From: Lachnospiraceae bacterium
Lineage (GTDB): Bacteria; Bacillota; Clostridia; Lachnospirales; Lachnospiraceae
Length of the DNA: 64,000 nt
Direction: 5' to 3'
Assembly (NCBI GenBank): GCA_021199655.1
Contig: JAJQHQ010000059.1
Span: 1-64,000 of the forward strand
The position numbers and the translations under genes are program-made. A model generated the notes under the pieces. That model saw only the letters and a list, made by a program, of their open reading frames with translations. It was not told where the DNA came from and did no database searches. Shown one piece after another: positions 45,939 through 64,000 of this stretch. Each line of letters starts with the position of its first letter. Within the stretch, counting starts at the first letter, position 1.

Positions 45939-45967
45939 ATTATAATCCCTTCGATCATATGATTCAA
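45939..45967 (-). promoter_or_regulatory. Promoter of the lysR-type gene
   Basis: On the minus strand TTGAAT (45967-45962), a 17-bp spacer and TATAAT (45944-45939), ~25 bp upstream of the start. Confidence 0.6.
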
Positions 45968-46118: not shown

Positions 46119-47645
46119 ATGTCTAAATTTTCCATGTATTTAAAAGAACTTCTGGATCAGCGGGGCGAGCCAATCGCCAGAATTGCGAAGAACGCCGGTC
46201 TGGAGCGCACATCCATCCATAAAGCATTAAAAGATGAACGTATTTTACCGTATACGTCATTGAATCAGCTGACCAGATATCTGCAGCTGACACTTTCCCA
46301 GACGCGTGAACTGAACCAGTATTATGAAATGCTGCTGCAGGGGGAAGAGATTTTTCTGATACAGGAGGATATCTGCGATCTGCTTTCAGGTTTATCACAG
46401 CTGTCATTTTATTCGGAAGCAGACAATCAAGCGCCTGAGCAGACCCCAATCGCGGAGCGATTTTTTCATGGGGTCTGCGACTTGTCGCCGAGCGTACGCG
46501 AGGTGGCGCTTCCACTTGACACGGCAATTTCTGTACAACCGGGGCTGGTATACGGAAAAATGCAGGTAGAGAAAATGATACACTTGCTTTTGCGGAAAGA
46601 AACGGTATCTGAAAATGCGGAATTTTATCTGTCGATTCCCAGCGGGGAGACTATGGTGCAGGAAGCGCTTTTTCATCTTTGGAGTGACGGGAGAGTATTT
46701 TCCGTGCATCAAATGGTAGCATTTTTGCCACAGCATTTTGGGAAAGAAACAACGATCTTTAATCTGAAGATTTTGCGCGCGGTGATACCGATGGCACTGA
46801 TTTCTCAGGGGCGGTATCATCCATATTATTATTTTGAGAGCAATGCGGATTCCGTCTCCGTGGATCCGTTCCCCTATTACATTATCACTCCTGAATATGT
46901 TTTACGACTGGATGAAAAAATGTCGACAGCTCAGCTTTTGTCTGATGAAAATATAGTGGAATTATATCGGACACATTATGTTCAGCTGATGCGGGAATGT
47001 CAGCCATTAACATCTTATAGCAATGATCTGGCTGAGGTTCTGGAAGCTTATATGATGAGCACGGACGAGACCGGATATTATACGATCATGACGCAGCCTT
47101 GTCTGGGACATTACTATACGAGAAAACTGATGGAACTTCAGTTTCGTGAGGATATCCCGGATCGGGACAAAATGATAGAACTGAGTGACCGGCGTTTTGA
47201 CCGGCTGCGGCGTTTAGACCGGAACTATTATACTGTTTTTACGGAGCAGGGAATCCGTCAGTTCGCTGAAAATGGTGTAGCAGCAGATCTTCCGCCTGAT
47301 CTGGTGAAACCGGGTTCGCCCCAATTGCGCCTGGAATTGCTTGGGCAGCTGCGTAAAGACATCGCTTCCGGCGTGATTACCGGATGTATCACTGACGCGA
47401 GCCGGCTGGATATACCCGATTATCTGACCCTGACAGCGGATCCACAGTTTGGCCTGCATATTTACGCGATCATCGGATTTCCTGCGGGTCCCTATACCTG
47501 CAATCTGCATATTCAGGAATCCAGCATCGGCCAGAGCTTTTGTTCCTTTATTAAGTCATTACCGGGCAGTAAATTTGTATACCCTCAGGAAAAGACTCTG
47601 TCGATTTTAGATGAGCTGATCGCTCAGCTTGAAATGGAGACGTAA
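46119..47645 (+). CDS. HTH (XRE-like) regulatory protein, first gene of the signalling operon
   Basis: 508 residues, ATG 46119 after GAGGGAGA. The first ~70 residues form a lambda-repressor-like HTH: MYLKELLDQRGEPIARIAKN, then GLERTSIHKALKDERIL. The remaining ~430 residues have no motif I recognise: alternating helices and strands, no membrane segments, no repeats. This C-terminal part may be a ligand sensor. Position at the head of the operon, with a large inverted repeat upstream, suggests it autoregulates the cluster. Only 3 bp separate it from the next gene. Confidence 0.75.
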   Translation: MSKFSMYLKELLDQRGEPIARIAKNAGLERTSIHKALKDERILPYTSLNQLTRYLQLTLSQTRELNQYYEMLLQGEEIFLIQEDICDLLSGLSQLSFYSEADNQAPEQTPIAERFFHGVCDLSPSVREVALPLDTAISVQPGLVYGKMQVEKMIHLLLRKETVSENAEFYLSIPSGETMVQEALFHLWSDGRVFSVHQMVAFLPQHFGKETTIFNLKILRAVIPMALISQGRYHPYYYFESNADSVSVDPFPYYIITPEYVLRLDEKMSTAQLLSDENIVELYRTHYVQLMRECQPLTSYSNDLAEVLEAYMMSTDETGYYTIMTQPCLGHYYTRKLMELQFREDIPDRDKMIELSDRRFDRLRRLDRNYYTVFTEQGIRQFAENGVAADLPPDLVKPGSPQLRLELLGQLRKDIASGVITGCITDASRLDIPDYLTLTADPQFGLHIYAIIGFPAGPYTCNLHIQESSIGQSFCSFIKSLPGSKFVYPQEKTLSILDELIAQLEMET

Positions 47646-47648
47646 ATT

Positions 47649-49091
47649 ATGCAGACTTTTATGTTGATTGGTATTGGCATCATTGAGATTCTGTTTATAT
47701 TGATCATGATTCTGCTGGGACGTATGGCTTCTTTTACCAGGCCTCTGGTTTCCTGGGGGACACCGATTCCTCTTCTTCTGACTCTGGTATCTCTGCTTTT
47801 TTGGCATGAACAGATGACTAAATCGGTTTATCATCCGGTTTATCATCCATTCATATTGGAGGCTGGGATGCTTACAATGATCCTGGCGGTATGTGGAGGC
47901 ATCCTGGCAATCGTTTGTGCGTTTTTTGTCAGCCGGATTGCTTATGCCGGAACAGCTCTGTTGGGATTGACCGGCTGCTGTGCAGTCGCACTCAGGTTCT
48001 GCGTGCTGGGGTATGCAAAGCCCGGAGGAATGATCGGGTACGGCTGTTATTTTCTTACACTGGCGTTTGGATGTATGGGCATGACCATGAAAAAATCAGT
48101 CAGAACGAATGATAAAAGTGAAAAAGGAGAGGACGAGATGGAAGTTTCAGAAAAGGATTACATCAAAATAATATGGACGGTAACAGAAGGGCTTCTGGCT
48201 CTTTTGCTGTGTGTTACGCCGATGATGAGCTTCGGAGCGTATGGTTATACATATCATATCAGCTATCTTACCCTGCTTGGTTCCATTCTTTCTGTGGGTT
48301 CTGTAACCGGCCTGAGTATGCTCGGAGAGGATGGCGTCGGACTATGTATTTTCTATACCATTGTCATCACAGCTATTATTGTTTGCTGCGTAGTGATGGC
48401 GGTGAATGTGTGGAAAGGCCGGGGAAGAATCCTGTACCTGATTGGGAACGGGCTGGCTTTCATACTGGTGATTTTTGTACTGGTTGCGGTCAGAGCCTGG
48501 ACCAGCAACGGACTGATTTCCGATTCCGGTATCCTGAGAATGGGAATCGGATATTGGTTTTCATTGCTTCTGTCTGTGGCCGGATTTGCGTTTGGAGTTT
48601 TGAATTTTCTGAATAAGAGCGGCTATGAGAGAGATGCGGGTGTGCCAATCCGGCTGAAAATGCCATGGGGAAATACTACGCGTCATGTGGATAAAGAAAG
48701 GAAAATGTCAGGGACTGCCTCCGCGGACAGTTGGGAGGAAACAGATGCGGAAGAGAGAATGTACAGGACTTATCGGAAACCGGATACCGGTTATACGGAG
48801 ACTCGTCATGTGAAAAAGCCAGCCTGGGAAGATGCACCAGAGTCTTCGACAATGAATTCGGCCAAGACGAGATCCGGTACATCCGGATATCGAAGCGACA
48901 AAAAAGACAGTTGGTCTGATCACTATGCTTCTTTTGAAAATTCGGATTCCGGAAGAGTATCAGGAGCGGATGCAGAAGAAAAAATTCCCTCTGTTAAGGT
49001 AAAATACAATATCAGAAATCATGGGGAAGCGCAGACTGATTCGGATGAGGACGGATCCGGATTCTTTTACAGGGATGATGATCTGGCCTGA
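47649..49091 (+). CDS. Polytopic membrane protein with long cytosolic tail
   Basis: 480 residues, ATG 47649. About ten hydrophobic segments in two halves of five (FMLIGIGIIEILFILIMILL to YGCYFLTLAFGCMGMTM; then IWTVTEGLLALLLCVTPMMS to WFSLLLSVAGFAFGVL), joined by a charged loop. The last ~150 residues are hydrophilic and rich in Ser, Thr, Asp and Lys (e.g. YRTYRKPDTGYTETRHVKKP), a plausible target for the kinase encoded downstream. No known transporter motif. Possibly a membrane channel or platform of the system. Confidence 0.7.
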   Translation: MQTFMLIGIGIIEILFILIMILLGRMASFTRPLVSWGTPIPLLLTLVSLLFWHEQMTKSVYHPVYHPFILEAGMLTMILAVCGGILAIVCAFFVSRIAYAGTALLGLTGCCAVALRFCVLGYAKPGGMIGYGCYFLTLAFGCMGMTMKKSVRTNDKSEKGEDEMEVSEKDYIKIIWTVTEGLLALLLCVTPMMSFGAYGYTYHISYLTLLGSILSVGSVTGLSMLGEDGVGLCIFYTIVITAIIVCCVVMAVNVWKGRGRILYLIGNGLAFILVIFVLVAVRAWTSNGLISDSGILRMGIGYWFSLLLSVAGFAFGVLNFLNKSGYERDAGVPIRLKMPWGNTTRHVDKERKMSGTASADSWEETDAEERMYRTYRKPDTGYTETRHVKKPAWEDAPESSTMNSAKTRSGTSGYRSDKKDSWSDHYASFENSDSGRVSGADAEEKIPSVKVKYNIRNHGEAQTDSDEDGSGFFYRDDDLA

Positions 49092-49111
49092 TTCCGGGGG
49101 AGTGATACATT

Positions 49112-49558
49112 ATGGATTATTATACTTATCAGAATATAATTATCGGAATAATCGTATTTTTGGTTTTACTCCTGATTTTTTTAATGGTGATATATTGCAA
49201 AAAAAAGAAAGAGGACGAGCGGGATGCTGAAAAATCGGGAGAGACCGAAGATGATTCCTGGCATATGGATCCCTTTGCCGGTCCTGTTCACGAAGAGAAA
49301 AAAGCGGAGGGCAAAACAGAAGAAAAAGAATCCTCAGGTGTCAAAGTGAAATTTGGCCGGGGCTACGGCGAAGGATCCGGTTCGAATGATAATAAAAGGA
49401 AAGAAAGCGGAGCAGTAAAAGAGACAGAGGAATTATATCGTCTGGAAAAAGAAGAGGACAGAATATCCTGCCCCGGCTGTGGAGTGGAAAATCCGACGGA
49501 AAACAGGAACTGCATGTTGTGTGGAAGGATACTTCCGAGACCTTCAAAAAGTAAATAG
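49112..49558 (+). CDS. Membrane-anchored C-terminal zinc-ribbon protein
   Basis: 148 residues, ATG 49112. An N-terminal helix (IIIGIIVFLVLLLIFLMVIY) is followed by a highly charged linker and a C-terminal zinc ribbon: ISCPGCGVENPTENRNCMLC, i.e. C-x2-C-x10-C-x2-C. It is the mirror image of the next protein, in which the ribbon is N-terminal. Such ribbons mediate protein contacts in signalling modules. Part of the same operon (20 bp gap). Confidence 0.75.
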   Translation: MDYYTYQNIIIGIIVFLVLLLIFLMVIYCKKKKEDERDAEKSGETEDDSWHMDPFAGPVHEEKKAEGKTEEKESSGVKVKFGRGYGEGSGSNDNKRKESGAVKETEELYRLEKEEDRISCPGCGVENPTENRNCMLCGRILPRPSKSK

Positions 49559-49572
49559 TGAGGGAGAAAAAG

Positions 49573-50226
49573 ATGTTTTGTAAATACTGCGGAAGAAAGA
49601 TCAAAGAAACAGATACGAAATGTCCATACTGCGGCGGAAAACGGGCGCCGATGCAGGCTGCGATCGAAATAAAAGAATTGCTCGGCGAAAAAAAACCTGC
49701 TATGTCTGAAAAACCGGGACGGGAACAACAGGAGCACGGTGACTCTTCAAACTGGGAAAATGTGGAAATAATGCCGGAATCTGAGGAAGAAAGACCCAAA
49801 ACAAAGGAGTTGCAGAAGCGGGTAAGAAGACTGGAGCGATACGCCCATTTGCAATTTCGGATTTTAGGAGTTTTTGCTTTACTTTTGCTGCTGCTGTTTC
49901 TGGCTGTCATCATATCCGGAGCACTGATCAACGGAAAAATCCGTAAGCTGGACGTCGACGCTCTGGAGCAGAGAATCGAACTTCAGGAAGAAGCAATGCA
50001 AAAGATGCAGAGTTCCGTAATGAAGTTAGAAGAGGATGCTGAGCTGGCTGTTTCCAGTAATTCCGGATCGGATTCAGATAAAGACGAGTCTGAAGCCGAA
50101 AGTGAGACAGAGACCGAAAACGAGACAGAGAGCGAAAGCGAAACAGAGACCGAAAGCGAAACAGAAACCGAAAGTAACACGGGAACTCAAGATCGAGACA
50201 AAAACCCGAACAGGAAAGATGCCTGA
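49573..50226 (+). CDS. N-terminal zinc-ribbon protein with one membrane helix and acidic tail
   Basis: 217 residues from ATG 49573 (GAGGGAGA upstream). Starts with MFCKYCGRKIKETDTKCPYC (C-x2-C-x11-C-x2-C), then a charged region, a membrane helix (LGVFALLLLLLFLAVIISGA), a short coiled coil (LEQRIELQEEAMQKMQSSVM) and an acidic tail of ESET/ETES repeats. With the ribbon inside, the coiled coil and tail lie outside. Function unknown; zinc-ribbon domains also go with TerY-P-type kinases. Confidence 0.75.
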   Translation: MFCKYCGRKIKETDTKCPYCGGKRAPMQAAIEIKELLGEKKPAMSEKPGREQQEHGDSSNWENVEIMPESEEERPKTKELQKRVRRLERYAHLQFRILGVFALLLLLLFLAVIISGALINGKIRKLDVDALEQRIELQEEAMQKMQSSVMKLEEDAELAVSSNSGSDSDKDESEAESETETENETESESETETESETETESNTGTQDRDKNPNRKDA

Positions 50227-50271
50227 GGCACAACCACGTCGGTTAATATGGCTAAGGAGAAGCAATTCTTT

Positions 50272-51225
50272 ATGCTGCGAAATAAAAAAGAATCAGAGGA
50301 AGGTCTGTTTCTGGATTATCTGGGAACGATCGTGAATGTTTACAGTGAAAAGCTGGAAGGAAAGGGTGAGGACGCGTTTGTAAGCCTCGCGGTGGAAAAT
50401 GGAGCTATGATCGGATGTCTGGATGGGTGCGGCGGAATCGGCTCCAGAAGATATGCTGCTTTTGATTCGCATACAGGCGCTTATGTGGCATCCAGAGTCG
50501 CGGCTCAGGCGGCATCAGAATGGTTCCTGACCGGTATGGAATGGGGAGCGCTTTCTTCCCTGTCTGAAAAAGCGCTTGCAGCACTGATTCAAAAGGCACT
50601 GCAGGCCTGTAAGGGGATGGAACCGGTATCTTCCGGCTTAAAAGGAGCACTGACCAGAGATTTTCCTACTACGTTGACTCTTGCACTGGCAGATCTGACT
50701 TCTGTGTTTTTCTACTGGGCAGGAGATTCCAGAGGATATTTGCTTGACAAAAACGGACTTCATCAGATGACCGCGGATGATGTTGAACAGCAGGATGCCA
50801 TGCTAAATCTTCTGGACGACAGTCCGCTTAAGAACGTGGTTTCGGCATCAAAAAGCTTCGTTATCCATAAACGGAAAATCACCCTGCAGAATCCGGGTAT
50901 TCTTCTCACCTGCACGGACGGCTGTTTTGGATATCTGAATTCTCCGATGGCTTTTGAGTGGATGTTACTGGATACCATGCAGCTTGCAAAGTCACCGTCT
51001 GAATGGGAAAAGCTTTTAAAGGAAAGAATGACCGCTGTTGCAGGCGATGATTTCACACTGCTTGCGATGGTGCTTGGATATTCGGATTTTCTTCATATGA
51101 AGCAGGATTTTGGCGACAGATATGCGAAAATGACATCCGGATTTCGGCAGGCCGATAGTGACAGGGCACGGATGGCATGGTGGAGTGAATATAAAACAGA
51201 ATATGAAAAATATAAACAACTGTGA
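50272..51225 (+). CDS. PP2C-like Ser/Thr protein phosphatase
   Basis: 317 residues from ATG 50272 (AAGGAG 12 nt upstream); ATG 50248 is an alternative eight codons earlier but has no site. PPM/PP2C motifs in order: GEDAFVSLAVENGAMIGCLD with metal Asp and GCGG, TTLTLALADLTSVFFYWAGD then SRGYLLD, HQMTADDVEQQ, LLTCTDGCFGYL and AGDDFTLLAMVLG. Both metal-binding Asp sites are kept. It should dephosphorylate the targets of the kinase next door. Cytosolic. Similar phosphatases accompany TerY-type vWA and kinase genes. Confidence 0.88.
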   Translation: MLRNKKESEEGLFLDYLGTIVNVYSEKLEGKGEDAFVSLAVENGAMIGCLDGCGGIGSRRYAAFDSHTGAYVASRVAAQAASEWFLTGMEWGALSSLSEKALAALIQKALQACKGMEPVSSGLKGALTRDFPTTLTLALADLTSVFFYWAGDSRGYLLDKNGLHQMTADDVEQQDAMLNLLDDSPLKNVVSASKSFVIHKRKITLQNPGILLTCTDGCFGYLNSPMAFEWMLLDTMQLAKSPSEWEKLLKERMTAVAGDDFTLLAMVLGYSDFLHMKQDFGDRYAKMTSGFRQADSDRARMAWWSEYKTEYEKYKQL

Positions 51226-51282
51226 TAATGCGAGACAGCTGCTTATGTGAGACAGCGAAAGAAGAGACGGAGAGGGTCCGAA

Positions 51283-52323
51283 ATGGCGGAATTCATTAAC
51301 GGATATAAGCTGGATGCACCGCTGAAAACAGATAACAGCGGATTTTCAAAATGGGGATTTGCCAGCTTAAACGCAAAGAAATATTTTATTAAGGAATTTT
51401 TAAGCCCGGTCTATCCGGCGGACGCAAAGCTGCTCGGTGAGGAACTGACGCAGAAAAGGAAGGCATCCTGCGAAAAATATGTCACTGAAAAACGGCTGCT
51501 GTTTGCTGCAATCAATAAAGCTTCCGACGGCAATATTGTCCACATCGAGCACTTTTTCCGCTATGGAAGCAAATATTACATAGTGATGGAAAAAGTGGAA
51601 GCAGTCAGCAGGCTGGATGTCCTCGCCCTGCCATTGGAGGGAAAGATTTTTATCTGTATGATTCTGGCACACGCGGTATCTGGCCTTCACCAGGCAGGGC
51701 TGGTACATGCGGATCTGAAGCTGGATAATGTGATCTTTTATAAGACGAAAGACGATAAAATCGGAGCAAAGATCATTGATCTGGATACCTGCTTCTGGGA
51801 AACATTTCCGCCGAAGTCGGAAGAAGAAATTACCGGAGATCAGATCTATATGGCGCCGGAGACATTCCTGCTGCTTGCCGAAGAGGAAGGAACTCTGACG
51901 CGAAAAATAGATGTTTACGCGATGGGAATCATTTTTCACCAGATTCTGACCGGATCCTTACCGGGATTTGATACTGATCAATATCAGTATCCTTATGAAG
52001 CGCTCCTGAATGGGGAAAAACTGAGAATCGACAGCTGCTACGGCAGATGGATATCAGAGCTGATCAACAGCATGCTGCAGCGGGGACCAGATGACCGAAT
52101 CAGTATGGAGATCGTGTGTACACAGCTTCGTATCCTGTACCGAAAACTGAGCGGCTTGCCGGATGAGGATTTTTCTTACTCCGGAGACATTCCCTATGCG
52201 AAGAAGGATTCCCGTTCAGAGAAAGATTCCCGTTCAGAAAAGGCGTTCCGTTCCGAGGACGCGTCCGGGAAACACAAGACAGACAATTCGTTCTTCCGCT
52301 ATGCCGGAGAGGATGACCTGTAA
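51283..52323 (+). CDS. Ser/Thr protein kinase-like protein
   Basis: 346 residues from ATG 51283 (GGAGAGGG upstream). Kinase-fold motifs: YFIKEFLSP with the ATP-binding Lys, the hinge KYYIVMEKVE, catalytic loop LVHADLKLDNVIF (HxD-LK-xxN), metal-binding DLD in AKIIDLDTCFW, the APE motif in YMAPETFLL and DVYAMGIIFHQILTG. The HRD Arg is replaced by Ala, DFG by DLD and no glycine-rich loop is obvious, as in other divergent bacterial kinases; activity is probable. The C-terminus has DSRSEK repeats (52204-52257) that could be autophosphorylated. No membrane helix. Confidence 0.87.
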   Translation: MAEFINGYKLDAPLKTDNSGFSKWGFASLNAKKYFIKEFLSPVYPADAKLLGEELTQKRKASCEKYVTEKRLLFAAINKASDGNIVHIEHFFRYGSKYYIVMEKVEAVSRLDVLALPLEGKIFICMILAHAVSGLHQAGLVHADLKLDNVIFYKTKDDKIGAKIIDLDTCFWETFPPKSEEEITGDQIYMAPETFLLLAEEEGTLTRKIDVYAMGIIFHQILTGSLPGFDTDQYQYPYEALLNGEKLRIDSCYGRWISELINSMLQRGPDDRISMEIVCTQLRILYRKLSGLPDEDFSYSGDIPYAKKDSRSEKDSRSEKAFRSEDASGKHKTDNSFFRYAGEDDL

Positions 52324-52355
52324 TAGAGAAACAGACAAAAGAGGAGGAATTAAAA

Positions 52356-53042
52356 ATGCAGACAGAATTTAAAATGACCTACAATGTGGACATGGTGTTT
52401 TGTATCGATGCGACAGGAAGTATGTCTCCGGTAATTGATCTGGTCAAAAAGAACGCGCTGAACTTTTACAATGATGTGCAGACCGTCATGAGAAAAAAAG
52501 GGAAGGTAATCAACTCTCTGCGCGTTCGTGCGATTGCGTTCCGGGATTATCTTGCAGATGGAGATGACGCCATGCTGCTGACAAATTTTTTTGATCTTCC
52601 CGATCAGGCTGATGATTTTTCGAGATGCATTAAAAGCATCCGCGCAACAGGCGGCGGGGATGAGCCGGAGGATGGTCTGGAAGCACTTGGCTATGCGATC
52701 AAATCGAAGTGGAATATGGAAGCAAAGAAAAAACGTCAGATCATCGTCGTGTGGACGGATGCTTCTACTCATGAAATCGGGTACGGACGTTCTGAAAAGA
52801 ACTATCCTCAAAAGATGGCCCGGGATTTTTCGGAGCTGACAAGCTGGTGGGGGAATAATCAGATGGAAGGTTTTATAGATCAGGCTGCAAAACGATTGAT
52901 CCTCTTTGCGCCGGAAGCCCCATACTGGTCGCAGGTGGCGGATAACTGGGATAATGTGATTCATTGCCCGTCTCAGGCGGGGAAAGGCGTAGCCGAACTG
53001 GACTATAATCAGATCATCGATACGATCTCAAATACGATCTAA
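52356..53042 (+). CDS. TerY-like vWA domain protein
   Basis: 228 residues, ATG 52356 after GAGGAGG. A single von Willebrand A domain: VDMVFCIDATGSMSPVID provides the MIDAS D-x-T-x-S (Asp18, Thr20, Ser22), RAIAFRDYLADGD the Thr-equivalent region, and ATGGGDEPEDGLEALGYAI the later Asp; QIIVVWTDASTHE is the fourth strand. It binds a divalent cation and probably protein partners. The vWA-PP2C-kinase neighbourhood is that of the TerY-P triad. 129 bp separate it from the FHA genes with nothing of note. Confidence 0.88.
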   Translation: MQTEFKMTYNVDMVFCIDATGSMSPVIDLVKKNALNFYNDVQTVMRKKGKVINSLRVRAIAFRDYLADGDDAMLLTNFFDLPDQADDFSRCIKSIRATGGGDEPEDGLEALGYAIKSKWNMEAKKKRQIIVVWTDASTHEIGYGRSEKNYPQKMARDFSELTSWWGNNQMEGFIDQAAKRLILFAPEAPYWSQVADNWDNVIHCPSQAGKGVAELDYNQIIDTISNTI

Positions 53043-53171
53043 TGCCGGATAAGGAAGCTTTTACTTCGTGTGCAGGGCCTATACTCAGAGAATGCCGGTT
53101 TTCAGAAGAAAACTGCGTATTTGGATGCAGCGCAGAGCATTTGTCACTATTCTGCAGGAGGAGCGAACAGG

Positions 53172-55124: not shown

Positions 55125-55146
55125 TATTGTGCGGAGGAAAATGGAT

Positions 55147-56427
55147 ATGAAACAGGAGCAATATGGAGTGGTCACTGGTCTTACCGGTGAATATGCGGGG
55201 CGCAGGCTGCGTATGAACGCTAATGAGACACTATGGTTTGGCAGCGATTCCCGCAATAATGCAGTTTTAAGAGGGGAAAACATTTCCCCTCTGCATTGCG
55301 GAATTTCCTGCGACCCGGAAAATAACTGCTTCTGGGTGGCGTGTGAGTCTGAATTCGGTGTCCTTGTGGATGGAGTAAAACGGCTGCGAAAAGGTACTGA
55401 GGTCCGTTTGCCTTCCGGCACGCAGATTCAACTTGGCAGTTATCTTTTTAAACTCTCCTGCGCAGGGGCTGTGCAGGAAAGCGGTGATCACGAAAATAGC
55501 ACAAGGAGAGATTTTTATAGAGACAGTTCGAAAAACAGAAGATATGAGGTATCCGAACCGGAACCTGGGTATTCAGAGACAGAATCGGGAAAAACTCATA
55601 TTACTTCAAAACATATTGGTATTTGCTGCGCTGCTGCGGTGGCCCTTATGTTTATTTGTGTGACCGCGGCTGTCATGGTCAATAATGGCAGATCAGATAA
55701 TGAGAATACCGAATATATATACGTTGAAACAGAGCTTTCGGAGACATCCGGGGAGGTAACTGTAAACAGCCAGGATGATAGTTTGGAGACTTCCAATGAG
55801 AATAATAATAAAGAGATAGAGATTGTCGGGGACGATATTGCGACTGCTACTGGTTCTATTATGCTTGACGGAGGCGAAACAGTATCTATTGCTTTGGATT
55901 CCAACGGATTCTCGGAGGGCAGTCAGATAACATATTATTATAATAGTGATGACGAATATTATACAATTTACAGATACTCTGACTATTCGTTGTATCGTGA
56001 TGACTATACCTGGGTGTCGTTTCAGAAAACGGATGGGGTAGTTGATTACAGGCTTAGATATGAAATCTACGATTGTGACATGACGGATGAGAAACTTGCA
56101 AATGAATTAGCAAGTTATGATCTTTTTCATCAAGATGATTTGGTAATGGGAGATATTTGTACTTTTAAATGGAATAGTGTTAGCTATAAGTATTTTACAG
56201 CTACTCATCTCTTTGATCGGGTGTACAATGACGATGATTTTTGTTGCGACGCGCATTATTGCGTATATATTGTCTGGTGGGAACAGGAGGGTAATATTGT
56301 TTCCGCGTCCTTGAATCTCTGTATTGAGACAGAACTGGGGGGAAGCGTTAGCTGGCCTGAGCCTGGCATAGATTTGCTTATTTATTTGATTGGAGCTGTT
56401 GAAGGCAGTGAATTCTATAGCGGTTGA
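55147..56427 (+). CDS. FHA domain - membrane helix - unknown ectodomain protein
   Basis: 426 residues from ATG 55147 (GGAGG 9 nt upstream). The FHA domain (residues ~6-105) is nearly identical in DNA and protein to that of the previous gene (TLWFGSDSRNNAVLRGENIS). A membrane helix (~156-180, GICCAAAVALMFICVTAAVM) is followed by a Ser/Glu/Asn-rich stalk and a ~150-residue ectodomain rich in Tyr and Asp (YYNSDDEYYTIYRYSDYSLY) that is unlike the LRR. The ectodomain DNA is visibly more A+T-rich. Probably a second receptor with different specificity. Confidence 0.8.
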   Translation: MKQEQYGVVTGLTGEYAGRRLRMNANETLWFGSDSRNNAVLRGENISPLHCGISCDPENNCFWVACESEFGVLVDGVKRLRKGTEVRLPSGTQIQLGSYLFKLSCAGAVQESGDHENSTRRDFYRDSSKNRRYEVSEPEPGYSETESGKTHITSKHIGICCAAAVALMFICVTAAVMVNNGRSDNENTEYIYVETELSETSGEVTVNSQDDSLETSNENNNKEIEIVGDDIATATGSIMLDGGETVSIALDSNGFSEGSQITYYYNSDDEYYTIYRYSDYSLYRDDYTWVSFQKTDGVVDYRLRYEIYDCDMTDEKLANELASYDLFHQDDLVMGDICTFKWNSVSYKYFTATHLFDRVYNDDDFCCDAHYCVYIVWWEQEGNIVSASLNLCIETELGGSVSWPEPGIDLLIYLIGAVEGSEFYSG

Positions 56428-56473
56428 ATGAATATAAAGGTATATTTTATTCCTGCCTGGAGGACAAGAATTT

Positions 56474-59400
56474 ATGTGTGGAAAGAGAAGATTTTATGGC
56501 ATAGCTATTACAGTCGGAACGGTGTGTCTGCTGGCGGCTATCGTAATCAACCTGTACAGGAATGACACTGGTTTGTTTCAATCTGCGGCTTCCTCTTTGT
56601 CTGATGAAGCAACTTCTTCTTTTGTCCTTTTAGCGGATGTATCATATGAAAACACGGTTCTTAATAATCAGGATGCAATGCAGGCAGCGGAAGATCTGGG
56701 TCTATGTAAATCAGCTTCTGATTTGGCAGTATACAATACGACACAGATGCACGGAGAGACTTTTTATCAGTTGCAGCAGATTTATGAAGGAATTGATGTG
56801 TATGGTCATTCTGTCAGTGTTTTGACGGATGAAAATGGAAATATTACAGCGGCCAGTGGAAATTATGTATCTGTTTCAGACATTGACACTGTGCCTTCCT
56901 TATCCTTGGCGGAAGCTGCGGATATCGTATATGCAGATATAGAGAAGACTCTCGGCCTTGATGCAGCGGACCAACTCAGTCTCAGCGATGAGGCTGATTG
57001 CGAATCTGTGATTTTTCTGGATGAATATGAGGAACCGCATCTGACTTATGAAATGCGTCTCCTGGTGGACGGGATGGAGTATGGCACTGCGCTGGTGGAT
57101 GCAGACACGGGCATTCTACTGGAGATGTCGATTATATCTGAACCGGACTTTAGCTCGTACGAGTTTGATACACATGTTTTTGGAAACGCAGTCGTATCTT
57201 TGTCTAAAAACAATACCGACAGTACATATTATATTTTTTCTGATGAACAGAGAAATCTTGTACTTTATGATGCCCTGAAATCAAAAGTAGACTATGAATA
57301 CGACAGTTCTACAGGCAGTGTAAATGTATTCTTTGAAGATAATCCAAATGCGTCTGTCTTGCCTGCTAAAACAAATGATCTTGAGAATGTTAAGTTATCC
57401 TGGACATATGCTTATGCTGGAGCAACACTGACATACGATTATTTTATGGATGTCTTGGGCAGAGATGGTTTTGATGGCTATGGAGGCTCTACGTATATTA
57501 TATGTAATACAGTAAACTCTTTTTCTTTTCTGGAGTCATTGCAGACAAATGCCAGTTCTGTTTTATTGTCAAATGCTTCAGTGCTTTGCTTTGAATGCTC
57601 CAGCAACTTAGCAGGTCTTAATATTGTATCTCACGAGTATTCACACAGCGTTGAAAAATCTATTACATTAAAATCAGCTTCAGAAACTAGTGAAGAGTAT
57701 AAAGCGGTCAGAGAGTCGATCGCCGATATTTTTGCAGAAATGGTAGAAGCCTGGATCACGGGAGAGGATCCGGACTGGATTTATTCTGGCAACAATCGAA
57801 AGCTTTATAACAGTGGGGCCATATTTTCTGACGCGGTCTATGACTATAATAAGTATGGAGGTCTGAACCCTACTCGTGATGAGCATTCGTACAGCACAAT
57901 TTCTTCTTACGCCATGTATTTAATATGGAATTCGTGGCGCAGCGACGGCATGGATGTAGAGACAGCCATGACAGCCATGTCAGAACTTCTTTACCGGGCT
58001 CTGTTTCTTATCCCTGACAATGCGTCCTTTCAGGACTTTGCTTATGTGCTATATACCAGCGGTATGGTGATGGAGATTTCCGGAGAAATAACTCATTCGG
58101 AACTTCAGGCGATTCTGGATGCGTTTAATTCAGTAAATGTAAAAGTGTCGGTGTACGGGCTGAAAGAATACGAATATAATGATTGGGACAGCTTTTATTA
58201 CGATTGTCTGACAGAAGCGGCGTATGCGGTTATATCTGTGGATGGTACAACCATTCAGAATGCTGACGCTCAGGAGCTGGCTGTCCTTTTTATGCTTCCG
58301 CATATAAATGAAAAATTCCCCAGTTATACATATGATGACACATTGGGGGGATTCAGGCTGTCTTCCAGGGAACTGTCTGATCTTTTCTGCAGCATTTACG
58401 GAGACTACAGCCTGTGGAATGAGAGTAATCTGGATTCTCTGACCTATTACAAATGTCTGGACGATGGCTCTTATCTTGTTCCTGTTTCAGAGGAAGATAC
58501 AGCTGTAGCAGCCGGATGGGAATTGAATATTACGGATTATGATCGATTGAAGTCCATAATTACAATGAGTGGAACATTGGTGAGCCCGAAAAGCGAAGGC
58601 AGTGCTTTGTATAATATTGAATTAGAATTTGAGCGAAATGTTTCCGGTGATTTTTTCTTTCGCGGCAGCTATGCTCTTGTCAGTCTGACAGTAGAGCGGG
58701 AGGGTTCCGCGCTGGGAATCTGTTCCGGTGAGATTTATGACGCGGAAACTGGCGCACCCATTCAAAATGCCTGTGTGAGCTTCTATGTTTACGATTCCTG
58801 GCTGCCTGATGAGCTCTATTCGGAAATTCAGAATTCTGTTTTCAGTGATGAGGATGGCTTTTTTTCCTTTGGCGATGATTATGAACCGGGATTCTATAAA
58901 ATTACCTGTCAGGCTGATGGATATCAGGACTATACCGGCTCGATTAAGGTCATAGCGAACAGCGGTAAGAATGGTGTTGACATCTATGCATTGAATGAAA
59001 TTTATATGAATCCTTCTTTTGACACAGATACTATAGAATCATTTGATACAGAGACAGAGACTGAATCACCTGCAACAGAGGCGGATGTGATACAGTTTGG
59101 CAGTGAAGACACCGGCGACTCTTTCGGGGAACAGATTGCCACACTGGCTGCGCAGTATGGCGTGATTGCTACCGGAACAGATTCCTATGATAGTTTATTG
59201 GAAAATATCGACAATACGGCGGAGACATTTTCCTCTTCACGGATCAGTGGTCTGCTGTGCGCGGATATCTATGATTATGACATGGATGGTACGGATGAGT
59301 TGATGGTACTGCGTGTGGATCCTGGAGACTTCTCGGCTGGCGACCTGGATTATGCCAGCACGAATCTTTATGTCTCCATCTATGAAAGTACGGAGAGCGG

Positions 59401-60136
59401 AGTGGTTTTGGCTGCTGAAAAACAGCTGACGCTTACCTGCGGTCTGGGATGGGGCAATACTTCCAATGTGTTCAGTTTGTTCCGCTATATTTCTCAGACC
59501 GGAGATGATTTAGAAGATGACCCGCCTCAGGTTAATCTGGGTTTTGATTATTACTGCAATCTGTCAGGGGCTGATCTTACGTTCGGCCTGATCGCATTAA
59601 CATATGATGGTGCGAATCTGCTTCTTGCTGACGGCCTTGAATGTATGGAGGATGCGGATGAGAATTATGCGGCTATGTATGTGGCATCAGATGAGGGAGC
59701 GCTGACGAATCTGACCGGCAGAATGTATCGAAACGAAGAGAATGGCTGGAGCACGAATGATCGTAATAATGGAGATGGCTTTTACGGATTTGATGGTGAC
59801 TTTACAGATTATGAGGCATGTTTCGATCAGCTGCTGCGAGTCCGTTTTGACCTGTGGGATGAGCTGGCCTTCCGGTCCATGTTTGGAGAACTGAATGTTT
59901 CATCCGTTTCCGGGCTGGCATATGTTATCGGTCTGTCACCGGCGGAACTTTACGACGATAGTTCCATCACCGAGCTGTGTACAATCCAGGCTCCCTGGTA
60001 TCAGGGCGGAATTACGCTGACGTGTGAGGATGATGGTGGGCTGCTGGATTCTTACAGAGGCAATGCAGATACGAATTCAGTTGAGACAGATTCGGATGAG
60101 ACAATCATCGTATTGAGTGCCACGATAGACGGATGA
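56474..60136 (+). CDS. Secreted thermolysin-like (M4) metalloprotease with Cna-B-like and C-terminal domains
   Basis: 1220 residues, ATG 56474 after GGAGGAC. Signal peptide or anchor: GIAITVGTVCLLAAIVINLY. Next are FTP/PepSY-like propeptide parts (~60-220; YQLQQIYEGIDVYGHSVSVL), then a metalloprotease domain with NIVSHEYSHSVEKS (zinc ligands His387 and His391, base Glu388) and the third ligand Glu414 in RESIADIFAEM; DEHSYSTISSYAMYLIW is the substrate-side His. From ~755 a Cna-B/carboxypeptidase-regulatory-like fold (GEIYDAETGAPIQNACVSFY) and a C-terminal domain with YDYDMDGTDELMVLRVD. Far longer than usual M4 enzymes. Co-operonic with a subtilase sharing these modules. Confidence 0.87.
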   Translation: MCGKRRFYGIAITVGTVCLLAAIVINLYRNDTGLFQSAASSLSDEATSSFVLLADVSYENTVLNNQDAMQAAEDLGLCKSASDLAVYNTTQMHGETFYQLQQIYEGIDVYGHSVSVLTDENGNITAASGNYVSVSDIDTVPSLSLAEAADIVYADIEKTLGLDAADQLSLSDEADCESVIFLDEYEEPHLTYEMRLLVDGMEYGTALVDADTGILLEMSIISEPDFSSYEFDTHVFGNAVVSLSKNNTDSTYYIFSDEQRNLVLYDALKSKVDYEYDSSTGSVNVFFEDNPNASVLPAKTNDLENVKLSWTYAYAGATLTYDYFMDVLGRDGFDGYGGSTYIICNTVNSFSFLESLQTNASSVLLSNASVLCFECSSNLAGLNIVSHEYSHSVEKSITLKSASETSEEYKAVRESIADIFAEMVEAWITGEDPDWIYSGNNRKLYNSGAIFSDAVYDYNKYGGLNPTRDEHSYSTISSYAMYLIWNSWRSDGMDVETAMTAMSELLYRALFLIPDNASFQDFAYVLYTSGMVMEISGEITHSELQAILDAFNSVNVKVSVYGLKEYEYNDWDSFYYDCLTEAAYAVISVDGTTIQNADAQELAVLFMLPHINEKFPSYTYDDTLGGFRLSSRELSDLFCSIYGDYSLWNESNLDSLTYYKCLDDGSYLVPVSEEDTAVAAGWELNITDYDRLKSIITMSGTLVSPKSEGSALYNIELEFERNVSGDFFFRGSYALVSLTVEREGSALGICSGEIYDAETGAPIQNACVSFYVYDSWLPDELYSEIQNSVFSDEDGFFSFGDDYEPGFYKITCQADGYQDYTGSIKVIANSGKNGVDIYALNEIYMNPSFDTDTIESFDTETETESPATEADVIQFGSEDTGDSFGEQIATLAAQYGVIATGTDSYDSLLENIDNTAETFSSSRISGLLCADIYDYDMDGTDELMVLRVDPGDFSAGDLDYASTNLYVSIYESTESGVVLAAEKQLTLTCGLGWGNTSNVFSLFRYISQTGDDLEDDPPQVNLGFDYYCNLSGADLTFGLIALTYDGANLLLADGLECMEDADENYAAMYVASDEGALTNLTGRMYRNEENGWSTNDRNNGDGFYGFDGDFTDYEACFDQLLRVRFDLWDELAFRSMFGELNVSSVSGLAYVIGLSPAELYDDSSITELCTIQAPWYQGGITLTCEDDGGLLDSYRGNADTNSVETDSDETIIVLSATIDG

Positions 60137-60187
60137 TTTTGTAGCTGCATGTTTTGCATAAAGGAAGCAATTTTGGAGGAAGCAATC

Positions 60188-63001
60188 GTGAAAAGGAAAG
60201 CATATGGTATGGCAGTGCTGCTGCTTGCAATAATTCTGGTTGGGGCGATTAGTCTTGAATTGCTGGGGCTGGCACCATGGGAAGCATTAACAGGAGGAGA
60301 TTCTCTGCCTGTTCCTGAAGAGTATGCGGATCAGATCACGGTTTATGAAAATGGGGATTTTGTTTATACTTATACAGAAGACCATATTGCTTTGGATACG
60401 GATGAATGGGTGATTTACGTTGATGAACTGGTTGATGTATTTCTGACAGAGGAATTATCTGGTGCTGAGAAACAGGAGCTGGCGGCTCAGGTAAACGGTA
60501 CGATCGTTACCGATATTTCTGGAATTGTGAATATGATGCAGATTCTGGTAGATGTGACGGATTATGCTGGTATATGTGAATATGCGGATATTCTGAATGA
60601 AAATGAGATTGTACGGAGTGCCTCGTTTGATGTGCCTTTTTATAATGAAGATATGTCAGTATATTCCGATAATAATCCATGGTCTGATACAGGAGAGGAG
60701 GAAGATCGAGGAAATGAAGAGAACCCAAATGGAAATGACTGGTGGGCTGAAGCGATAGGGGCGTATACTGCCTGGAGCTATGAAGATTATTTTACATCTG
60801 ATGTTGTGGCTGGTGTGCTTGATGGAGTTGTGAACACAGAACATGAGGATTTAAGTTCGTGTATTCAATTAATTAACTATACTCCTGGGAAATATAGTGA
60901 TCATGGAACTATGGTTGCCGGGATTATTGGTGCTACTGATAACAATGTGGGAATCCGAGGTATTGCAAGTAGTACAAATTACAATCTGACGATTTATGCT
61001 ATTGATCAGACTGGTAATTCTGATACCTCAATATCAGTGGACGATAAATATAATCTATATAGTTATACAGTAAATAGCGGTTCTTTTTTTGAGTCAATAA
61101 AGACTTTTCTGGAAAAAGATGTTAAAGTCATAAATATGTCTTTTGGATATTCTCATCCATTTACAGAAAGTAAGTATAAAGAATTGGTTAAAAGTCAGGA
61201 TTCGTCTATAAAAAAATTTATTGACAAGAATGTTGCTTATAATACCTATTTAGAGATTGTAGAAAATGCTGCAGATTCTATATCAGAATTATGTATTGAT
61301 TTAATGATTGATTTATTAGATATGGGGCAAGATTTTCTGATAGTAGAGGCAGCTGGAAATGGCTGGAATAACGGTGGGGAAGGACATGATTCAACATATT
61401 GCACAGGATACTTTACCGGTATACGAAAGGATTTATTTTCTGATGAAAATATGGACTACTATAATGCGGTTAATGAACATATTTTGATTGTGGGATGTGT
61501 AGAAAACTATACAGACGATGATGGAAACTATAGAATGTACACATATTCGAATTTTGGGGAAAATGTTGATATTTGTGCTCCTGGATATAACATTTATCAT
61601 TTGAGTGGAGACGGGTATATCACTGATCTTGGAGGAACATCCGCCGCTGCACCAATGGTAACCGGAGCCGCAGCTTTGCTGTGGTCTATTGAACCATCGC
61701 TGACAGCATCCGAAGTTCGAGGTTATCTTCTGTCAGAGCATAATTCAATTCATGCTGTTTCAGTTTATTCAGAGGATATGTATCCAATGCTCAATGTTGG
61801 TGCGGCGGTGGAAGCTCTTCTGGAAGATATCGAAAATCTGGGAACCTGTTCCGGTAATGTGTATGATTCCCTGACAGAGGAGCCGGTTGAGGGTGCTGTA
61901 GTGACGATCACAAATGTCCGGGAGTATAATACGTTTGAACGCATCTGGAATTATATTAAGAATGCTTTTGACCACGATTCTCTGGAAACCAGAGAGATTG
62001 AAATATCTACAACAACAGATGAATACGGGTGGTATCTTTTGGATGAAAATATATCAGCGGGAGAGTATGAGCTCACCGTTGAAGCAGATGGATATTATAC
62101 TTATTCGGAAACGACGACCGTCAAGCCGAATGGAGCTCTTGACTCAACGGTTTATTATGTCGATACAATCTATCTGGTTCCGCTAAGCGAGAGCAGCAGT
62201 ATTCCTGTGATCCGGGAGAGGGAAACGGAAGCAGAGGCTGAACCGTCGGCAGCAGAGGCAGATGAGACCGCTTCCATGTACGCCGCCTATCTTGAAGTGA
62301 TCGAGTCCTACGAGTCTCAGTACGGAGCAGGTTCTTACTATATCTGGGATCAGACCGATTATTACACTTATTATAAGGTCTCTGGTGTGTACCTGATCGA
62401 ACTGCTGGATTTCGATGGAGACGGGCAGGAGGAACTGATGCTCTGTGTGCTGGATCCGGATTCCAGTGCTCCGGTCTATGGCGCTTCTGTATTTGCCGAT
62501 GTATGGGCCTACAAAGATGGAGAAGCTGTTCTGGTCTATTCGCCGGAGCTTCAGGCTGATGAGTCGTACGATATGCTACACGATGGAGGTGTCTGGTATG
62601 AGGAAGGTGTTTGCATGAATATTATAGCCGCGAGTGAAATACAGATATATTTTGCATACACCAGCTATAACGGGAAAATTTATATGATGCAGGGCTTGTG
62701 GGGCGGCGTCACTAATGAGTACTATTACGGATATGAGGACGGAGAGTTTCATCTGGTGCATACCAGTGTTGAAGACGAAGATACCCGTACCTGTTATGTT
62801 GACGGCGAAGCTGTATCCGATTCGGAATGGCAGGAACAGCGGGAATTGTGGAATGCGGGAATGGTCCAGTACCATCTGCTATCCGTTGATGATACAAGTG
62901 AGCTGCAGGGAATGCTGTCAATAGCGGAAGAGACAAAATCATTTATCCGAGCTAATGCAGGAGATGAAGAAGAAACTGAATTAATGGTAGTAATACAGTA
63001 G
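60188..63001 (+). CDS. Secreted subtilisin-like (S8) serine protease with Cna-B-like and C-terminal domains
   Basis: 937 residues from GTG 60188 (GGAGGA upstream; the frame from 60149 is not supported). N-terminal signal/anchor: GMAVLLLAIILVGAISLELL. Catalytic residues: Asp212 (VVAGVLDGVVNTEHEDLS), His239 (YSDHGTMVAGIIGA), oxyanion Asn391 (EAAGNGWNN) and Ser485 (GGTSAAAPMVTGAAAL). A Cna-B-like fold follows (GNVYDSLTEEPVEGAVVTIT), then a C-terminal domain with LLDFDGDGQEELMLCVLDPD as in the M4 protein. The catalytic part (about 60840-61800) is more A+T-rich than the flanks. Last gene of the operon. Confidence 0.9.
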   Translation: MKRKAYGMAVLLLAIILVGAISLELLGLAPWEALTGGDSLPVPEEYADQITVYENGDFVYTYTEDHIALDTDEWVIYVDELVDVFLTEELSGAEKQELAAQVNGTIVTDISGIVNMMQILVDVTDYAGICEYADILNENEIVRSASFDVPFYNEDMSVYSDNNPWSDTGEEEDRGNEENPNGNDWWAEAIGAYTAWSYEDYFTSDVVAGVLDGVVNTEHEDLSSCIQLINYTPGKYSDHGTMVAGIIGATDNNVGIRGIASSTNYNLTIYAIDQTGNSDTSISVDDKYNLYSYTVNSGSFFESIKTFLEKDVKVINMSFGYSHPFTESKYKELVKSQDSSIKKFIDKNVAYNTYLEIVENAADSISELCIDLMIDLLDMGQDFLIVEAAGNGWNNGGEGHDSTYCTGYFTGIRKDLFSDENMDYYNAVNEHILIVGCVENYTDDDGNYRMYTYSNFGENVDICAPGYNIYHLSGDGYITDLGGTSAAAPMVTGAAALLWSIEPSLTASEVRGYLLSEHNSIHAVSVYSEDMYPMLNVGAAVEALLEDIENLGTCSGNVYDSLTEEPVEGAVVTITNVREYNTFERIWNYIKNAFDHDSLETREIEISTTTDEYGWYLLDENISAGEYELTVEADGYYTYSETTTVKPNGALDSTVYYVDTIYLVPLSESSSIPVIRERETEAEAEPSAAEADETASMYAAYLEVIESYESQYGAGSYYIWDQTDYYTYYKVSGVYLIELLDFDGDGQEELMLCVLDPDSSAPVYGASVFADVWAYKDGEAVLVYSPELQADESYDMLHDGGVWYEEGVCMNIIAASEIQIYFAYTSYNGKIYMMQGLWGGVTNEYYYGYEDGEFHLVHTSVEDEDTRTCYVDGEAVSDSEWQEQRELWNAGMVQYHLLSVDDTSELQGMLSIAEETKSFIRANAGDEEETELMVVIQ

Positions 63002-63067: not shown

Positions 63068-64000
63068 TTAATACCAGACTTCTTTTTCCATAACGACCTC
63101 GCATTGCTTTTTATAGCAGGCAATGCCGTATTTGAGAATTTTATGCATATCATCCTCTTTCAGTTCAGCGGTATAATTGTTTTTATTAATCTGGTCCAGA
63201 GCTTCCTTACATGCTGCGTTCAGATTCCCGCCTTCCGCATATTTCACCTCGATGATAATACCGATGCCTTCCTCTTCGATTTCAATCTGAATGTCATAGA
63301 ATCCGTCGCCCGCTTCTCCATTTGAGCTGACGCCCCAGTCGCTTTTATAGAACATAATTCCAAGGATCAGGCCGTGATAAAAGTTTTCCTTAAATTCTTT
63401 TCTGACAGCGGTATCGCGGATACTGATCGTCTTTCCCATACACTTTGTGAACACCCGCTCGACATCGGTTGTATCACCATTCTTCAGTGCAGCGCAGAAT
63501 TCGGTCACTAAAGTGCCGTCTTCTGCCACTTTTTCTTCAAATAAGTCCAGAATAAATTCGCTGAAGATTTCTCGGACTTCGTTGTTTGGAATTTTAAGAC
63601 GAACCAGATTTCACGTACTTCCGCATCAGTAAAGCCGAACTGTTCGTCACATTCCGCGTCCAGAAGGGAGTATATTTTCAGATTGTTCAATCCGGTAAAG
63701 ATACTTTCTTTTGAAACCCTGAGGCAGCCTGTCATTACCGAAAAAAACAGGCTGTCGTTCGTTTTTAAAGCGGCATCTAACATATTTCGGATCAGAACGA
63801 TCATCTTGTCATAGTAGCCGTGTTCATTCGCTTTTGCCAGAGGCACGTCGTATTCATCAATCAGAATGATCACTTTCCGGCCATAATGTTTTTCCAAAAG
63901 CCGGGATAAGGTATTCAGACTGCCGGTGATTGTAGACTCGGACATGGCAAAGGTGCTTTGTAATGTGTCGTCGACTTTAATAAGCTGACGATAATTGCAT
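63068..64000 (-). pseudogene. Decayed DUF1703-type AAA-ATPase / PD-(D/E)XK nuclease gene, partial
   Basis: Read on the minus strand the frame is open from the window edge (RQLIKVDDTLQSTFAMSEST) through KVIILIDEYDVPLAKA (Walker B-like) to FGFTDAEVREI near 63610. Then it jumps to VRLKIPNNEVREIFSEFILD in another frame, and ends with the nuclease part DIQIEIEEEGIGIIIEVKYA (PD-(D/E)XK Glu-x-Lys). The ~130 residues normally found between these blocks are missing, and the deletion, perhaps at the EVREI repeat, put the two parts out of frame. Such genes are abundant in gut Firmicutes and Bacteroidetes. The 5' end is outside the window. Confidence 0.8.

Follow-up and report, generated by a model that had tools for sequence, protein, structure and literature searches.

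A vWA, PP2C and kinase gene block of a Lachnospiraceae bacterium as a candidate membrane-tethered switch with a shared C-terminal tail

Described vWA, PP2C and kinase systems and the Lachnospiraceae block

Triads of vWA, PP2C phosphatase and kinase genes recur in bacteria. Here we describe such a triad within a block of eleven genes (g01 to g11) from a Lachnospiraceae bacterium (GenBank assembly GCA_021199655.1; genome of 3.98 Mb, 98.6% complete). The block lies on a 64-kb stretch of contig C75, which is called the window below. Comparison with related loci brought out a short C-terminal tail carried by many triad kinases and also by proteins encoded in the same operons. Judging from sequence, and with moderate confidence, we read the block as a membrane-tethered kinase/phosphatase switch, probably gained horizontally, in which the shared tail would dock the kinase to membrane partners and adaptors would couple outward-facing modules to the complex.

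TerY-P systems also have adjacent vWA, PP2C and Ser/Thr kinase genes. Their triad occurs with CoCoNuT and other restriction systems, and their kinase carries a C-terminal zinc ribbon or, in an antiphage variant, an OB fold (accessible part of PMC11090510); a kinase-PP2C-vWA trio also stands beside GAP1-N2 systems (accessible part of PMC7159879). The preliminary description of the locus had taken the triad for one of the TerY type. The triad itself is real, but the kinase g06 has neither a C-terminal zinc ribbon nor an OB fold, no CxxC pairs in its disordered tail and no further Pfam domain; lacking a zinc ribbon fused to its kinase, the triad does not qualify as TerY-P. In the window the zinc ribbons are predicted in separate membrane proteins, a putative docking tail is shared, and Pfam finds no Ter or restriction gene among the eleven. 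The vWA protein g07 had no PADLOC or NCBIfam match at E 0.1 in a library search in which the presence of a PADLOC TerY model was left unchecked, and the phosphatase g05 had no PADLOC match at E 0.1. Over the nine proteins submitted to PADLOC (g01 to g09), g06 gave generic kinase matches only (best mad6, E 3e-24), g04 and g08 gave one weak match each and the other six none. A role in phage or competitor defence, also suggested earlier, gained no evidence from the analysis.

In the PpkA-PppA-Fha pathway of type VI secretion systems (T6SS) the vWA domain is fused to PpkA, whereas that of the block is a separate protein; the block further differs by its Lachnospiraceae host, by the absence of T6SS genes among the eleven (Pfam) and by FHA domains without the arginine that binds phosphothreonine. 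The likeness lies in a kinase, a PP2C, an FHA protein and membrane partners, and in a phospho-switch that controls an envelope machine (accessible part of PMC3953482). The YegI-PphC-YegL set of Escherichia coli likewise groups genes for a kinase, a PP2C and a vWA protein close together, but no specific homology was found (hhalign probabilities: YegL 38% over 31 columns, PphC 0.8%, and YegI 90% as a kinase). The inner-ring proteins SctD/YscD resemble g08 and g09 in having a cytosolic FHA fold without the full set of phosphothreonine residues, a single transmembrane segment (TM) and a large outer domain; the outer domains of g08 and g09 are different ones, and no secretion apparatus gene was seen in the block. 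Finally, in CbbO and NorD a cytosolic vWA domain is thought to grip an acidic target residue (PMC5385338 and PMC9976466, each in its accessible part); the block differs in having no MoxR AAA+ partner among the eleven, and the ligand proposed here is a C-terminal tail common to the kinase and membrane proteins. We file the system, on its sequences, as one of the vWA-PP2C-kinase kind, apparently membrane-tethered and with a putative tail code.

The conserved core, the shared tail and its candidate receptors

Three aligned vWA sequences, used to scan genome contigs, yielded 70 loci; with the window added and duplicates removed, 71 were analysed. TMs and open reading frames (ORFs) of the relatives were called crudely, without start-site evidence, and some ORFs will be wrong. 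The vWA, PP2C and kinase genes lie on one strand within 8 kb in 67 of the 71 loci, in the order vWA-PP2C-kinase (52 loci), PP2C-kinase-vWA (14) or vWA-kinase-PP2C (1). At least one zinc-ribbon ORF related to g03 (z1 type) or g04 (z2 type) lies within 8 kb in 42 of the 68 kinase-bearing loci, the z1 type being found repeatedly next to the triad; a cluster of 16 loci (L055 to L086) has neither type. The order of the window, with the polytopic membrane protein g02 followed by z1, z2, PP2C, kinase and vWA, is found again in L013/L023 and L021, and in L022 without a called z1. By gene content, the recurrent unit is the vWA-PP2C-kinase triad, often accompanied by predicted zinc-ribbon membrane proteins. 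The preliminary description had treated FHA and protease genes as joined to the triad, and the survey of other genomes went largely against it: a local FHA profile detected an FHA gene in the triad operon at four of the 71 loci (the window, L022, L023 and L014, where it encodes an ABC ATPase), and an S8 gene was found in six of 71. Since both occur in few triad operons, the eleven-gene unit is not the conserved one; judged by predicted gene content, it is an elaboration, particular to one lineage, of another core that is conserved.

The tail has the form [FWY]Fxx(A)GDL-COOH, for example WFKPAGDL. In the window, g06 ends in FFRYAGEDDL and g02 in GFFYRDDDLA, and the homologues of g02 end in FFHTDTDDLA (L013/L023), FFHADNDDLD (L021) and FFHHDDELS (L022). 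Scored with a leave-one-out profile, the tail is present on kinases in 37 of the 42 cases with z1- or z2-type genes within 8 kb, versus 2 of the 26 others (Fisher, 2e-11); when the regular expression was made stricter and the zinc-ribbon test looser, the counts were 36 of 43 versus 0 of 20. At a score of at least 9 the tail was found on 25 of 310 accessory operon ORFs; among the remaining ORFs at these loci it was on 0 of 640, and 2 of 4750 internal 8-mers reached that score; once a fragment of the split L022 kinase is removed, 24 accessory ORFs from 19 loci remain. Tails of one locus resemble each other in slight excess only (4.03 matches of 8, versus 3.62 between loci). A search of the class added six loci beyond the 70, from five genomes. 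Three of them have the full z1/z2 arrangement, and there all three kinases and two accessory ORFs, of 63 selected ORFs, score at least 9; one further ORF, in L130, scores 8.1. In the genome of the window itself, a search with the tail pattern returned nine sites, eight of them readable; besides g02, one (L139) precedes an in-frame stop and is a candidate only. No description of the tail was found among the papers listed on triads, zinc ribbons, TerY, LRR proteins and MIDAS/vWA tails, a literature in which subscription journals were partly covered.

The accessory proteins that bear the tail are diverse. One locus, L035, has six of them, among which are a TetR-type regulator and a BspA-type LRR protein with a second TM ahead of the tail; a second kinase is tailed in L078. 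For 29 proteins listed by hand (score of at least 5, two dropped), TMs are predicted in 19, and all 19 have more Lys and Arg after the last TM than before it, which places the tail in the cytosol. The AlphaFold model of g06 has a well-formed kinase fold in which the tail is disordered. We infer that the tail acts in trans as a docking plug. An intramolecular clamp was considered and set aside, the predicted model leaving the tail without docking in cis, which is a weak negative.

Two further observations concern the tail. Beside the triad of L029 lies a TIR-kinase fusion (L029:8520-9932; TIR at 27.8 bits, cut-off 28) whose end, GFSRASDLD, is tail-like. A second motif resembling LKSTMR lies upstream of the tail in 9 of 41 tailed accessory ORFs, 2 of 42 tailed kinases, 0 of 27 untailed kinases and 0 of 846 other ORFs, as counted with a looser tail expression and with a motif expression made after the motif had been sighted. 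This LKSTMR/LKGSL motif resembles a conserved PP2C segment (LKGSLxRxF) of most loci, in g05 around LKGALTRDFPTT, perhaps through mimicry or by coincidence.

The vWA protein is a tentative candidate for the receptor of the tail: an intracellular, integrin-like metal ion-dependent adhesion site (MIDAS) would bind the aspartate of the GDL or DDL end, and the kinase and its partners would compete for it or share it. Among the Foldseek matches listed for the predicted g07 model, all 50 are integrin entries (TM-score 0.57-0.66, identity 12-19%), mostly beta-subunit chains by their titles; a profile search of PDB sequences gave integrin beta-8 (E 0.005), and g07 exceeds the Pfam cut-off for Integrin_beta. 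The MIDAS residues D18xT20xS22 and D135 are invariant in all 23 aligned vWA sequences (alignment A2), tail-less loci included. An aspartate precedes the terminal hydrophobic residue in 33 of the 39 kinases matched by the regular expression, being replaced by Glu (3), Asn (2) or Ser (1) in the others, and in 29 of 29 listed accessory tails, a set chosen by a profile that favours Asp. Precedents are the CbbO MIDAS with Asp82 of Rubisco (accessible part of PMC5385338) and, as its authors propose, the NorD MIDAS with acidic residues of NorB (accessible part of PMC9976466). Against the vWA stand, besides the six kinases with another residue in place of the Asp, 24 kinases with neither a tail nor z1/z2 neighbours in loci that retain vWA, and three such loci within A2 that retain the MIDAS. 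Because tail-less loci retain the MIDAS, the zinc-ribbon scaffolds are a serious alternative.

That the cytosolic zinc-ribbon parts of z1 and z2 are the receptor, anchoring kinase and partners at the membrane while the vWA does something else, is a reading that we advance with low confidence. The co-occurrence of the tail with z1/z2 genes described above agrees with it, as does a kinase with its own predicted TM and no tail (L084). That co-occurrence may, however, stem from shared ancestry; the tail is also found on some soluble zinc-ribbon proteins themselves (L032, L045, L050), and the loci L131 and L132 have z1-profile ORFs without a tail.

FHA domains, outer domains and proteases

The genes g08 and g09 encode proteins with an N-terminal FHA part, a TM and an outer domain. 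Five FHA domains of the clade formed by the window and its nearest relatives were aligned with five from elsewhere in the same genome and two from L014. In all five clade domains the arginine that binds phosphate (GR motif) is replaced by serine, the SRxH motif reads SPLH or xPYH, and there is no NGT loop. The other phosphate-contacting residue, a serine, is retained in two of the five, both in the window, and lost in three. In L017, one of the comparison domains, the Arg position is occupied by Lys. The Pfam model Yop-YscD_cpl, of the SctD/YscD type, matches g08 and g09 below cut-off, and the NCBIfam TagH model matches their FHA parts far below it. The FHA segments of the two genes are 87.5% identical in DNA over 321 bp, the protein match being limited to residues 35-244 of g08 and 7-227 of g09; by these sequence comparisons, g09 is a recent tandem duplicate of g08 with exchange of the outer domain.

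Three FHA-bearing regions stand apart from these. A double-FHA ABC-transporter-like ATPase with canonical FHA residues (L014:3627-5156, on the contig of L089) lies next to a triad; its other neighbours are a permease-like ORF and an additional kinase and PP2C-like ORF, the second of each kind there. The same genome as the window has a second, unrelated FHA/kinase cluster (L016; C20:24001-43811) whose three FHA domains retain the GR arginine, and an FHA-domain ORF with a zinc-ribbon-like N-terminal start amid several unassigned genes (L018; C29:12000-30000).

Proteins of the arrangement FHA-TM-S8 lie downstream of the vWA gene in two relatives, directly after it in L022 and second after it in L013/L023. 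Pfam scores their FHA domains at 21.6 bits in L022 (cut-off 20.7) and, in L023, at 19.5 bits when the whole protein is scored and 23.7 when its N-terminal piece is. In the other L023 protein, FHA-TM-propeller-like (DUF5050), the FHA domain is detected only with the local profile and, below cut-off, with Yop-YscD_cpl. Near the contig end of L021 the vWA gene is followed by a kinase-N-lobe-like segment, a TM and an S8 match; the segment is 34% identical to the kinase N-lobe of L016 (E 8e-8), and Pfam finds no domain there. Zinc ribbon-TM-S8 proteins occur in L081, after the kinase, and in L100 and L101. In a search for S8 relatives across 397 genomes of the bacterial family, the three other matched genomes, with L100 and L101 from two of them, carry an FHA domain or a zinc ribbon ahead of the TM. 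LRR outer domains, for their part, are joined to FHA in g08, to a zinc ribbon in L082 (seen by Pfam) and L049 (seen as CxxC pairs), and to the tail in L035 (LRR-TM-tail). Such parallel swaps speak for adaptors and outer domains being distinct modules that can be interchanged within a single type of system. No description of FHA-TM-S8 proteins turned up in the literature named above, in which no search was aimed at FHA with S8.

These arrangements strengthened the earlier suggestion of an envelope-spanning link to proteolysis, and they bear on a simpler account, that a triad operon and an unrelated surface-protease operon are chance neighbours joined on one island. The absence of FHA and protease genes from most triad loci would fit this account, as would the S8 relative of L101, which has no triad gene nearby. 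It is nonetheless improbable in view of the placement of the FHA-TM-S8 genes in L022 and L023, the partial S8 gene after the vWA gene in L021, the zinc ribbon-TM-S8 protein that follows the kinase in L081, and the presence of S8 in 6 of 315 accessory ORFs of triad operons versus 0 of 666 others in the same loci, four of the six belonging to one clade. LRR enrichment is weak (6 of 315 versus 3 of 666, P 0.03). The FHA, LRR and protease genes are, by their predicted distribution, clade-specific accessories whose link to the core looks real.

Another account follows the type VI threonine phosphorylation pathway: the kinase phosphorylates, and the FHA domains read phosphothreonine, as had been proposed for this locus. 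The kinase, PP2C, vWA and FHA genes are adjacent in the window. In Agrobacterium, Fha binds phosphothreonine on TssL, a membrane protein; Hcp secretion was only lowered by the single changes R30A or S46A and was abolished by the double change R30A S46A (accessible part of PMC3953482). The window domains have lost only the Arg of this pair; in the three other clade domains the Ser is gone as well. The SctD FHA domain without the full residue set is held to be phospho-independent by most studies, although one study reported phosphopeptide binding (accessible part of PMC4045390), and most triad operons have no FHA gene at all. Since none of the five clade domains has the phosphate-binding Arg, phosphothreonine reading is doubtful here; we judge it unlikely on these residues, and the account as a whole has little probability.

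The proposed switch, the gene block and its island

In the switch that we favour, the core, as the comparison of loci shows, consists of the kinase, the PP2C and the vWA protein, with z1, z2 and the polytopic g02 beside them. The tail of the kinase and its partners would serve as a docking plug, and its shared receptor would be the vWA, by way of the metal site, or else the zinc-ribbon scaffolds. Binding to this receptor would bring the kinase to the membrane partners, which it would phosphorylate and the PP2C would reset. Outward modules (LRR, unassigned, S8 and M4) would be coupled to the complex by small cytosolic adaptors: here FHA domains, probably working without phosphate, and, in other loci, zinc ribbons, part of a kinase N-lobe or simply the tail. 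As for the direction of signalling, we favour one in which the extracellular LRR and other domains would report surface contact or damage inward, the membrane-anchored proteases being a regulated outward output.

Several points weigh against this proposal. The tail expression and profile were defined after tails had been seen, which leave-one-out scoring and the new loci cure only in part. The 71 loci are related to one another and fall into 46 clusters at 85% vWA identity. Five kinases with z1/z2 neighbours score as tail-less; among these the L022 kinase is split, and those of L081 and L085 end in something weakly resembling the tail. The more distant kinases of L131 to L133 are untailed even though z1-profile ORFs are present in L131 (1e-10) and L132 (2e-9); the tail therefore marks one branch of the triads and not all those with zinc-ribbon neighbours. 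On the side of the outward modules, most triad loci have no FHA, LRR or protease genes, so the core does not need them. The S8 match of L021 covers half the domain. The zinc ribbons of the zinc ribbon-TM-S8 proteins rest on CxxC pairs, with Pfam matches below cut-off (L081, L100) or none (L101), and L100 and L101 have no triad gene in 5.2 and 19 kb of DNA, which means that the S8 family can stand alone.

The features of the block are collected in Table 1. The ORF listing of the window confirmed the eleven same-strand genes of the preliminary description. The gaps between them, said to be 3-129 bp, are in order from g01 to g11 3, 20, -1, 21, 21, 32, 27, 4, 46 and 12 bp. The terminator-like sites listed for the + strand, 15 in number, all lie outside the gaps, as had been described; over both strands 20 such sites were found, versus 13.6 +/- 3.8 in shuffled sequences. 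The GC content of the block is 44.5%, versus 49.4% for window bases 1-45,000.

Table 1. The eleven genes of the block, the gene beyond it and the island (window coordinates; the island is given in contig coordinates and ends 84 bases past the window)
Feature	Position	Strand	Description
g01	46119..47645	+	508 aa, putative helix-turn-helix (HTH) type, weak (Pfam HTH_26 E 0.076, below cut-off)
g02 (M)	47649..49091	+	predicted polytopic membrane protein, long Thr/Ser-rich C-terminal region, end GFFYRDDDLA
g03 (z1)	49112..49558	+	one N-terminal TM, C-terminal zinc ribbon CPGCGVEN...CMLCG (sub-threshold)
g04 (z2)	49558..50226	+	N-terminal zinc ribbon (sub-threshold), one TM, C-terminal region predicted outside
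g05	50248..51225	+	PP2C phosphatase (PF13672 E 4e-9)
g06	51247..52323	+	Ser/Thr kinase (PF00069 E 4e-24), disordered C-terminal extension, end FFRYAGEDDL
g07	52356..53042	+	vWA protein (PF25106 and PF00362 Integrin_beta above cut-off)
g08	53070..55124	+	non-canonical FHA, TM, LRR ectodomain (Pfam FHA 34.5 bits, LRR_4 E 5.5e-18)
g09	55129..56427	+	non-canonical FHA, TM, unassigned ectodomain (Pfam FHA 37.5 bits)
g10	56474..60136	+	predicted M4 protease, FTP propeptide (Pfam)
g11	60149..63001	+	predicted membrane-anchored S8 subtilase (PF00082 E 1e-28), catalytic D, HGT, N and GTSA motifs present
apparently broken gene	63068..63945	-	two overlapping short ORFs (AAA-ATPase_like and PDDEXK_9), within the island
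island	45944..~64084		18.1 kb, blastn gap against two congeners

Most of the earlier gene identities held. Pfam matched the PP2C, the kinase, the vWA, FHA with LRR, FHA, S8 and the M4 propeptide above cut-off. The M4 catalytic-domain models fell just under gathering in g10 (22.0 versus 24.4 and 21.2 versus 22.4), where HEYSH and ESIAD motifs were read by eye in a predicted protease, and the zinc ribbons of g03 and g04 are sub-threshold with CxxC pairs present in both. The HTH call for g01 is very weak, and the g01 profile has members in two loci, the window and L022. The acidic residues of g05 in GED, DGCGG, GDSR, TDG and GDD are conserved (invariant columns of the PP2C alignment A3). In the g06 AlphaFold model, the domain is mostly above 90 in predicted local distance difference test score, residues 303-339 and 345-347 are below 50, and the closest folds are DCLK1 and CaMKII.

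Two side observations concern the proteases and the neighbourhood of the triad. Residues 747-984 of g10 and 564-802 of g11 are 25% identical (E 1e-12), covering a carboxypeptidase-regulatory-like domain followed by a region with D-x-D-G motifs; the catalytic domains of g10 (M4) and g11 (S8) are unrelated despite this shared region. An NB-ARC/AAA-TPR (STAND-like) protein is encoded immediately upstream of the g02 relative in L021, in the same direction (L021:3591-5666).

The block lies on an island that is missing from two congeners, G205 and G208. Their blastn matches (C75:40001-83900 against L145 and L146) stop at 45,943/45,952 and restart at 64,085/64,087, collinear on both sides, with about 30 bp between the flanking matches in G205 and about 510 bp in G208; given these empty sites, either the 18.1 kb entered this genome or the congeners lost it. 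The end regions of the island were not found to have a repeat of at least 10 bp in common, whether direct or inverted. With the genome of the window included in each count, the g07 vWA has matches in 1 of the 47 genus genomes, hence in no congener; in the family, 5 of 200 genomes match at E 1e-10, two of them only distantly similar, and in the class 14 of 391 match at E 1e-40. The block is rare and was probably gained horizontally. Searches with the vWA returned 18 plasmid records, two covering 80% of the query, and five phage records, one covering 80%. More distant triads are found on a Herpetosiphon plasmid (vWA 46% identical; PP2C by motifs only, Pfam being silent) and on a Calothrix plasmid (vWA 39% identical; kinase and PP2C-like gene in another order). 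A record labelled Bacteriophage sp. (MT836186.1, L095) holds PP2C, kinase and vWA genes in that order, as does L047 from Faecalibacterium, and its kinase has the same end as that of L047; it is probably chromosomal DNA rather than phage.

A bolder and speculative form of the proposal, which we put forward with low confidence, is that of a family in Clostridia comparable to receptor kinases: an intracellular integrin-like vWA would read a C-terminal GDL plug, and plug-bearing proteins (LRR membrane proteins, zinc-ribbon proteins, a TIR-kinase, a TetR regulator) would be wired to one kinase/phosphatase pair, which in this genome would also drive membrane-anchored proteases through non-canonical FHA domains. 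The shared tail makes partner choice directly and cheaply testable through eight residues. If the proposal is true, outward LRR and protease domains coupled to this kind of switch would give gut Clostridia a bacterial counterpart of receptor kinases and of protease-gated surface signalling.

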